From assembly GCA_023267215.1 (NCBI GenBank), contig JAHFNS010000002.1:96149-128891 (forward strand): a stretch of DNA of 32,743 nucleotides. The letters are read 5' to 3'. The position numbers and the translations under genes are program-made. Within the stretch, counting starts at the first letter, position 1. Each line of letters opens with the position of its first letter. Positions 8,415-16,035 of the stretch are shown here, piece by piece. The stretch comes from Candidatus Nomurabacteria bacterium (GTDB lineage: Bacteria > Patescibacteriota > Minisyncoccia > Phycocordibacterales > UBA9973). The notes beneath the pieces were generated by a model that searched no databases, had not been told where the DNA came from, and worked only from the letters and a program-made list of their open reading frames with translations.

Positions 8415-8421
8415 ACTTTTG

Positions 8422-8817
8422 TGGAACTGGCGGAAATCGAATCCGCGTGCAGAAGGTTTTTGTTAAGAAATCTACATATTTAGCATATTTTTGTTTTAAA
8501 TTAAAAAATTATTAAATGAGCAAAATATTTTTCAATCGATTCTCTTTATTTCGAAAGAAAGTCGAGACTTCTTTCCTCTATCCCGATAATATTATGCCCA
8601 TTCTCATATATCGGAAGTCTATGAGATAGACACGAGCTTACGCTAAAGCGGAAACTCGAGCAAAAGCAAAGTCGTTCATACCGAAGTATGGAGAAACTGC
8701 TGCCTTTACTTTATCAGTCAATTTTGCAATTAACATTTAGACGAATTTTAACGAGATTACGTCTATACTCGATATGCATCTTAAACAATAAGCCAACTGT
8801 CTATGCCTTGCAGTCCC
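8422..8817 (-). ncRNA. ssrA: transfer-messenger RNA (tmRNA)
   Basis: tmRNA rescues stalled ribosomes with SmpB. The minus-strand ends form the tRNA-like domain: 5' GGGACTG (complement of 8811-8817) pairs with 3' CAGTTCC next to the T arm (CGGA-TTCGAT-TTCCG region, 8429-8445), followed by discriminator A; CCA is not encoded. The tag reading frame starts at a GCA resume codon at 8727 and ends at TAA 8638-8640. It begins AKLTDKVKAA and ends FARVSALA, 29 residues in all, longer than the 8-15 usual in many bacteria but ending in a degron-like ALA. The gene follows smpB by 21 bases with no clear promoter of its own, so it may be processed from a yvcK-smpB transcript. About 396 nt is a normal length. 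Confidence 0.93.
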
Positions 8818-14024: not shown

Positions 14025-14053
14025 AAAAGAAAAAATCCCCACACAAATGGAGA
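14025..14053 (-). terminator. intrinsic terminator of the 14063-14186 RNA gene
   Basis: Minus strand: TCTCCA/TGGGGA stem (one U-G pair) with loop TTTGTG, followed directly by TTTTTTCTTTTT. It lies 9 bases after the closing stem of the structured RNA. Confidence 0.75.
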
Positions 14054-14062
14054 ATTATTCTT

Positions 14063-14186
14063 AGGGTTATTTCCAATGTATTACCATAGCTTATAGCTAA
14101 GTGGATACTAGACGTGAAAGACCAAGGTCAAACACGATCGAAGTTTCCATAAAATATTGTTCTAGGTAATAATTGGAAATAACCCT
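14063..14186 (-). ncRNA. structured non-coding RNA, 6S-like candidate
   Basis: Minus-strand RNA of about 124 nt. Its ends form a 22-bp stem: 5' AGGGTTATTTCCAATTATTACC (14186-14165; given as one arm in pieces AGGGTTATTTCC and AATTATTACC) pairs with 14085-14063 with a single one-base indel. Inside, GGA..TCC and GATCGTG/CACGTC form an apical stem ending in GAC-CUUG-GUC, and the 3' side of the internal bubble carries a small hairpin UAGCU-AUA-AGCUA. A long closing stem, a central bubble with a small hairpin on its 3' side and an apical stem is the architecture of 6S RNA, though 6S is usually 150-200 nt. A promoter places the start exactly at 14186 and a terminator follows the stem, so this is an independent RNA gene. 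That it is an RNA gene is well supported; the 6S identity is tentative. Confidence 0.65.
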
Positions 14187-14192
14187 ACTAAA

Positions 14193-14220
14193 AGTATAGC
14201 AAAGTCTAAAGTGTTAGCAA
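14193..14220 (-). promoter_or_regulatory. promoter of the structured RNA
   Basis: Minus strand: -35 TTGCTA (complement at 14215-14220), 16-base spacer, -10 TATACT (complement at 14193-14198). Seven bases after the -10 is 14186, the first base of the RNA's closing stem. Confidence 0.7.
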
Positions 14221-14249
14221 CTAGACGAAACTTTTTTTTCGTTTCTGAA

Positions 14250-14846
14250 TTATTCTGCAAGATATTGCTTCATTTTTTCTTTAAAATTTTCAAAAGAAGT
14301 ATAAAGTTCTGCTTGAATTCCAAACTTTTTAGCTCCTTCCACATTTTCAGCCTTATCATCCCAAAATAGTATTTGATCTTTTTTAATATTTTGTAAATCT
14401 TCGTATATTCTTGCAAAAAATTCCTGATTCGGCTTTTTACATTTCATTAAAGCAGAACAATAATTCTTATCAAATATTTTATTAAAATTCATTTTGTCCA
14501 ACATATAAGCAAAACGATATTTTTCATTATTTGTAGCAAGTAGACACAGTATTCCTTTTTTTCTTAATTCATTTATATAAGAAATTAGTCCTGTGTCCAT
14601 CTTATGATCTCGTTCAAACCAATATTTTAAAATTTCATCTACCCCCTTCTCCCATCCCCATAAATCTAAATAAGGGAGAATAACTTCCTTAACATCAGCT
14701 TGACCTGCCACACAATCTTGCAACGGTCCCTTAAAGAATGGGAGAGATTTTTCCAAAGGTATTCCATAATCTCTCTCGAGGCCGATACTAAGTGGTTCTT
14801 GATATGTTATACAATTAACTCCGTCAAAAATAATTACTTTTATCAT
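14250..14846 (-). CDS. HAD-like protein with altered motif I
   Basis: 198 residues with a HAD (haloacid dehalogenase-like) Rossmann core and a helical cap. Motif II is CLLATNNE (Thr), motif III is the Lys of KCKKPNQEFF, and motif IV is ILFWDDKAENVEGAKKFG (DD). Motif I reads IIFDGVNCIT: compared with the usual DxDGV the segment is two residues shorter, so the nucleophile Asp remains but the second, acid-base Asp is missing. Many such proteins are weak phosphatases or have lost catalysis. It follows the CYTH gene by 5 bases and has an AGGGG stretch before its ATG, so the two are probably co-translated. Confidence 0.8.
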   Translation of the reverse strand: MIKVIIFDGVNCITYQEPLSIGLERDYGIPLEKSLPFFKGPLQDCVAGQADVKEVILPYLDLWGWEKGVDEILKYWFERDHKMDTGLISYINELRKKGILCLLATNNEKYRFAYMLDKMNFNKIFDKNYCSALMKCKKPNQEFFARIYEDLQNIKKDQILFWDDKAENVEGAKKFGIQAELYTSFENFKEKMKQYLAE

Positions 14847-15450: not shown

Positions 15451-16035
15451 TTATTCGTCTACTCCAAAACGTTTATAGGTATATGTAGGACTTGTTCCAA
15501 ACCAGTGCTTGATTTCGTGTTCTGCTTCTTCTGGTGTTTCTGAACAATGCATTATATTCATAACTGCACGCTTTTCTTTGTTTGCAAGTGCTGGAGAATC
15601 AATAGAAAAATCTCCTCTTATTGTTCCAACAGCAGCTCTATATGGCAAAGTGTCTCCGGCAATTTTACGAACTATATCAACAGCATGCACGCCTTGTACA
15701 ACCATTTTCACAAGAGGGGCACTTAGCATATAATCAACTAACCATTTTCTTATATCTGGACCAATCTTTGCAGGATCAGTAGTACCAAAATCTGCAACTA
15801 AATCATAGCCATATTTTTCATAAGTACTGACTGTTTTACCACCAAGTCTAGTAATCCATTCTTCGTTCTTTGGATAATGATTATCCATTTGATCATAGAC
15901 AGGCTGAAACATTTCAAGAGCAACAATCTTCAAATCGTGCTGTTCAAGACGTCTAATAACCTCACCTGTTAATCCTTTTCGGACGCCATCTGGCTTTATC
16001 ATCACATATGTTTGTTCTTCTTTTGGATGCTTCAT
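15451..16035 (-). CDS. ndk: nucleoside diphosphate kinase
   Basis: 194 residues. NDK transfers the gamma-phosphate between NTPs and NDPs through a phosphohistidine. YVMIKPDGVRKGL is the N-terminal ATP-site strand, YRAAVGTIRGDFS the nucleotide-binding loop and NIMHCSETPEEAEHEIKHWF the active-site segment with the catalytic His (HC instead of the common HG/HA). The protein is about 50 residues longer than the usual 140-150: extra sequence lies between residues about 52 and 100 (PKNEEWITRLGGKTVS...FGTTDPAKIGPDIRKW), where standard NDK has a short Kpn-loop region. TATAAT lies 22 bases before the ATG, giving a short leader. Confidence 0.95.
   Translation of the reverse strand: MKHPKEEQTYVMIKPDGVRKGLTGEVIRRLEQHDLKIVALEMFQPVYDQMDNHYPKNEEWITRLGGKTVSTYEKYGYDLVADFGTTDPAKIGPDIRKWLVDYMLSAPLVKMVVQGVHAVDIVRKIAGDTLPYRAAVGTIRGDFSIDSPALANKEKRAVMNIMHCSETPEEAEHEIKHWFGTSPTYTYKRFGVDE

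Follow-up and report, generated by a model that had tools for sequence, protein, structure and literature searches.

The window, a 32,743-nt stretch of a Candidatus Nomurabacteria genome, raises the question of what is encoded on the minus strand between its HAD and beta-CASP genes. An earlier note, made from the letters of this DNA, had read a complete gene for a structured RNA at this locus and had suggested that the RNA might be a compact 6S RNA.

Structure of the RNA gene

The promoter, closing stem, central bubble, CUUG-capped apical stem, UAGCU-AUA-AGCUA hairpin and T-tailed terminator were all present as the earlier note had described them (Table 1). The predicted RNA started at A14186 and formed a rod whose 22-bp closing stem extended to 14063. 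The core measured 124 nt from stem to stem in the window copy, and a length of 125-129 nt was found for every genus member. The length of about 124 nt given in the earlier note therefore held for the core but not for the primary transcript, which from reading of the sequence would be approximately 160 nt (core plus terminator hairpin) unless trimmed; core plus terminator spanned 145-183 nt across the genus. The promoter pattern by itself was unremarkable (3 found vs 2.5 expected). Of 68 genus members, 66 had a TANNNT-type -10 element whose end lay 5 nt ahead of the first model base, and 64 had a promoter spacer of 16-17 nt; a T-run lay no more than 75 nt downstream of the RNA in all 69 members inspected for it. 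The locus is a real, stand-alone gene, present in single copy and encoding a small structured RNA, and possession of its own promoter and terminator as a single autonomous gene is a feature shared with 6S RNA genes. The antisense strand also scored with R1, a covariance model built from genus sequences only, because the long stem is near-palindromic; its score was far lower (41.7 vs 142.2 bits), and the minus strand was fixed by the promoter, the terminator and the core letters. A later model, R3, matched the window copy at 14061-14187 with 103.8 bits.

Upstream of the promoter, a block on the minus strand at 14217-14250 (ATTCAGAAACAAAAAA..CGTCTA before GTTG) was kept in about half of the genus members, and other members carried a different TGTGTTTTT-type block. 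The conserved block is possibly a UP element or a factor-binding site.

Table 1. Features of the RNA gene, in positions of the window
Feature	Position	Strand	Basis
-35-like hexamer TTGCTA	14215..14220	(-)	sequence; TTG kept in 57/68 genus members
-10 hexamer TATACT of the sigma-70-type promoter, spacer 16, upstream TG	14193..14198	(-)	sequence; same distance to the RNA in 66/68
6S-like RNA core (closing stem, central bubble, apical hairpin, 3'-bubble hairpin)	14063..14186	(-)	fold, homologs, covariation
Closing stem, 5' strand	14165..14186	(-)	near-invariant AGGGUUAUUU...UUACC in genus
Closing stem, 3' strand	14063..14085	(-)	fold and covariation
Central bubble, 5' strand, 16 nt, invariant UAG	14149..14164	(-)	alignment; pairing prediction
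Apical (upstream) hairpin, 46 nt, cap C(CUUG)G, base formed by GGGAG..CACCC-type core	14103..14148	(-)	alignment
3'-central-bubble hairpin UAGCU-AUA-AGCUA	14087..14099	(-)	covariation and pairing prediction
Intrinsic terminator, 7-bp hairpin then T-rich tail	14026..14053	(-)	sequence; T-run conserved

Fold and covariation

The window RNA folded at -46.2 kcal/mol, compared with -22.7 +/- 3.2 kcal/mol for shuffled sequences (z = -7.3; 0 of 200 shuffles as good), bearing out the claim of a structured RNA. When the genus sequences were aligned with plain MAFFT (A1), double changes were observed in 17 of the 43 pairs, with a covariation score of 0.267 against 0.134 after shuffling (0/500), and 94.4% of the cells were paired, compared with 87.6% in shuffled alignments and 34-45% when the partner was slid. 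Double changes affected 41 of 43 pairs at the level of the order (score 0.580 vs 0.196 shuffled, 0/500) and 40 of 43 in the phylum (0.746 vs 0.200, 0/500); because A3 and A5 were aligned by fitting to the structure of the model, they favour it. The element was conserved in relatives, and the compensatory changes that the earlier note had proposed to look for were abundant at all three levels. The apical arm provided the best covariation evidence, with one pair seen as CG, UA, AU, GC and GU. In the window copy, one of the pairs in the GGG-CCC core stem carried a compensated change from G-C to A-U (GGAAA..UAUCC). A two-arm rod with a large central bubble, a characteristic of 6S RNAs, was thus backed by covariation.

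Distribution in Patescibacteria

Within the genus (Ca. Nomurabacteria, Paceibacteria), a DNA search found homologs in 79 of 80 genomes, including all 61 of good quality. In the order, R1 had matches in 89 of 247 genomes, representing 62 of 151 genera, and a matched genome almost always had a single site. The order model R2 matched 119 of 333 phylum genomes and R3 matched 147 of them (127 of 281 genera), leaving more than half of the Patescibacteria genomes with no model match at the thresholds used. A longer or differently built apical arm was observed in L082 and L088 (same family, sister genus), L141, L143, L146 and L147; arm length therefore varies within the order.

Relationship to 6S RNA

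When the window and the locus were scanned against Rfam with E up to 10, no family matched the RNA locus, and the 6S/SsrS model RF00013 found neither the window copy at this limit nor any site across its own genome. The search of the window copy against 6S and all families, which the earlier note had named as a check, thus gave no support. The copy lies below the Rfam gathering cut-off for 6S, which is a criterion of detection and not a biological feature. Matches to NsiR1, CRISPR-DR42 and others in these scans were below their own cut-offs and were taken as chance matches.

The 6S identity was instead supported by the coincidence of sites found by different models. Across the same 247 order genomes, RF00013 passed its cut-off in none and produced seven weak matches (E 7e-4 to 0.05), five of which lay exactly at R1 sites on the same strand (G311, G201, G127, G116 and G169); the other two loci, when fetched, matched R1 locally with 31.4 and 20.9 bits. 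We estimate that, in a single genome of such size, the sites would coincide by chance about 1 time in 5,000. RF00013 matched 27 of the 333 phylum genomes, four of them above the Rfam cut-off and all four at R2 sites. Both R2 and RF00013 matched in 20 genomes, and site and strand agreed in every one; there was no genome with conflicting RF00013 and family-model sites, which argues for homology to recognised 6S RNAs. R3 recovered RF00013 loci outside its training (L203, L205, L208 and L210 and, from the order, L145 and L146). Only the R1 coincidence is wholly independent, because RF00013 loci were included in the training of R2 (4 of 73 sequences were first obtained as RF00013 matches) and made up part of that of R3. 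L146 was in the R2 training and was not matched genome-wide by R1 at its threshold. R2 and R3 had no direct match to E. coli ssrS, a result that again concerns detection; the 6S RNAs of E. coli and B. subtilis are 38-45% identical (PMC8876501).

The alignment of RF00013 to L141 revealed that the letters GGGAG...CACCCACCUGG are common to the consensus and the sequence; they show the highest conservation in the entire family and are near-invariant in A5. The Rfam 6S consensus has a 16-nt 5' bubble strand, as does the window family. From the coinciding RF00013 and family-model sites, the 16-nt bubble strand, the GGGAG/CACCCACCU core at the base of the apical arm that is typical of 6S RNA, and the 3'-bubble hairpin, sequence comparison indicates that the window RNA is a divergent, compact 6S RNA. 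What the earlier note had offered as a guess thus gained support from the Rfam 6S matches coinciding with those of models built from the window RNA family, the homology being traced through intermediates and not by a direct match of the window copy. The RNA is a divergent 6S member that Rfam leaves unannotated in its order. With high confidence we assign the locus as the ssrS (6S RNA) gene of this Nomurabacteria genome, for which the 6S mechanism would be expected.

The window RNA shares with 6S/SsrS the rod, the closing stem, the central bubble with its 16-nt 5' strand, the 3'-bubble hairpin, the GGGAG..CACCCACCU core at the apical-arm base and the single-copy autonomous gene. It differs in its AT-rich closing stem and in the lack of any RF00013 score for the window copy. 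The suggestion that it is shorter than known 6S RNAs was confirmed for the apical arm (46 nt in the window copy vs 73 in the Rfam consensus); the transcript as a whole is only modestly shorter (core 124 nt and transcript approximately 160 nt, vs about 180-200). The four Patescibacteria 6S RNAs that passed the RF00013 cut-off (L199-L202) resemble the window family in the core, the short apical arm, the apical cap C(CUUG)G or C(CGUG)G and a site found by both models, and differ in the sequence of the closing stem. In L199 and L202, the two that were inspected, the upstream neighbour was a site-2-protease-like gene, unlike that in the window.

These matches place 6S RNA widely within Patescibacteria, where only 4 of 333 sampled genomes contain a match above the Rfam cut-off, and an alignment is now available for building a proper 6S model. 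Global control of RNA polymerase by 6S RNA was probably retained in nearly every genome of the genus despite many other losses. A literature search on 6S RNA in the candidate phyla radiation, Patescibacteria or Parcubacteria retrieved no relevant paper; priority is uncertain because most subscription journals were outside the search.

Predicted refolding and mode of action

The bubble of 6S RNA mimics an open promoter. RNA polymerase transcribes a short pRNA, with the 5' bubble strand and then the closing stem (helix P2) as template, and refolding in the bubble frees the polymerase (PMC8876501). In the window RNA, the UAG/CUA pairs at the tip of the closing stem had a predicted probability of approximately 0.45 and competed with the 3'-bubble hairpin (approximately 0.5); the two sets of pairings were shown by the structure model to be mutually exclusive. 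A hairpin on the 3' side of the central bubble that can replace the stem tip is a further 6S trait, here as a prediction. When 14 nt were masked as if paired with a pRNA, the hairpin was predicted in 66 of 67 genus members, compared with 25 of 67 for the free RNA, and remained in 70 of 71 order sequences. Masking shows compatibility and not function, because the competitor is removed by construction. The small 3'-bubble hairpin of B. subtilis 6S-1 can likewise already form in the free RNA (PMC8876501); the arms of 6S-1 are longer than those of the window RNA.

By analogy with 6S RNA, we infer RNA polymerase binding, pRNA synthesis, expression and a growth-phase role for the window RNA. An RNA transcribed between its own sigma-70-type promoter and terminator would form a rod with an open-promoter-like central bubble, and the bubble and apical arm would then occupy RNA polymerase carrying the primary sigma factor. 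On resupply of nucleotides, the polymerase would begin a short pRNA (AGGUAAU...) on the 5' bubble strand, presumably near U14164 as judged from the position, and extend it into the closing stem. Melting of the stem tip would allow its UAG/CUA pairs to swap into the 3'-bubble hairpin, and the enzyme would be released.

The RNA might alternatively be another RNA-polymerase-binding RNA, derived from or similar to 6S, that binds or stores the core enzyme without blocking sigma-holoenzyme and without a pRNA cycle. Ms1 of Actinobacteria shows that such a switch is possible (PMC9130861); this polymerase-binding RNA has the same two-arm architecture with a 6S-like central bubble, and the -35-like contact could be weaker where the apical arm is short. 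However, Ms1 is approximately 300 nt long, has extra terminal hairpins and binds core RNAP (PMC9130861), whereas the window RNA keeps the 6S core signature, the 16-nt 5' bubble strand and the 3'-bubble hairpin. Two short arms are enough for a truncated B. subtilis 6S-1 to go through the cycle in vitro, albeit with approximately tenfold weaker binding (PMC8876501); 6S function is thus compatible with a short arm. We therefore regard an Ms1-like role as improbable and a 6S RNA as the preferred reading. The natural short-arm form of this 6S RNA offers a test of which 6S parts are essential. A more speculative proposal, which we hold to be doubtful, is a Patescibacteria-wide 6S subfamily in which the apical arm falls about 27 nt short of the Rfam consensus and the -35-like contact is lost or reshaped; such a subfamily would regulate polymerase differently. 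If true, sequestration would be weaker or faster-released, or directed at the core enzyme, in mostly host-attached cells with genomes of 0.5-1.5 Mb.

Other readings of the locus and its neighbourhood

A new class of structured RNA that resembles 6S by convergence would agree with the missing direct RF00013 match of the window copy and with models that fall short of E. coli 6S. This explanation is very hard to reconcile with the unbroken chain of homologs at single sites, free of conflicting sites, that leads from the window copy to RF00013-scoring 6S RNAs, and with the core letters common to both; we consider it most improbable.

The SRP RNA models RF00169 and RF01854 matched nothing in the window's own genome, which is rated 100% complete, and the RNA could in principle be the SRP RNA of this clade, too divergent for Rfam. 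The same genome had no SRP54/FtsY GTPase above the Pfam cut-off (only a 33-residue match below it), so no SRP RNA is needed; neither an SRP RNA model match nor the Ffh/FtsY GTPase that would accompany an SRP RNA was found. No SRP family was among the RNA matches at the locus, and the homologs score as 6S, four of them above cut-off. An SRP RNA is therefore extremely unlikely, and the results suggest that the signal recognition particle was lost in this genome.

The gene order in the window was NDK (15451-16035), a CYTH-like gene, HAD, the RNA and beta-CASP, and the surroundings were partly kept across the order as nucleoside diphosphate kinase, the RNA, usually a small membrane protein, and the beta-CASP metallo-hydrolase. 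In the window, the beta-CASP start codon lies approximately 75 nt downstream of the RNA, and a beta-CASP gene follows the RNA in many relatives, but assignment of the RNA to the HAD gene upstream or the beta-CASP gene downstream, as a cis-acting leader or 3'-UTR element, has next to no probability given a promoter and terminator conserved in place, an upstream gene that differs, a small membrane-protein gene that often intervenes and the homology to 6S.

The small membrane protein (approximately 130 aa) that usually separates the RNA from the beta-CASP gene in relatives (e.g., L003, 1733-2110) was absent from the window; Pfam scans of two stretches, L003 and L014, gave no match for it. The window also contains a tmRNA gene on the minus strand at 8419-8817 (RF00023, 113 bits, E 9.8e-44).
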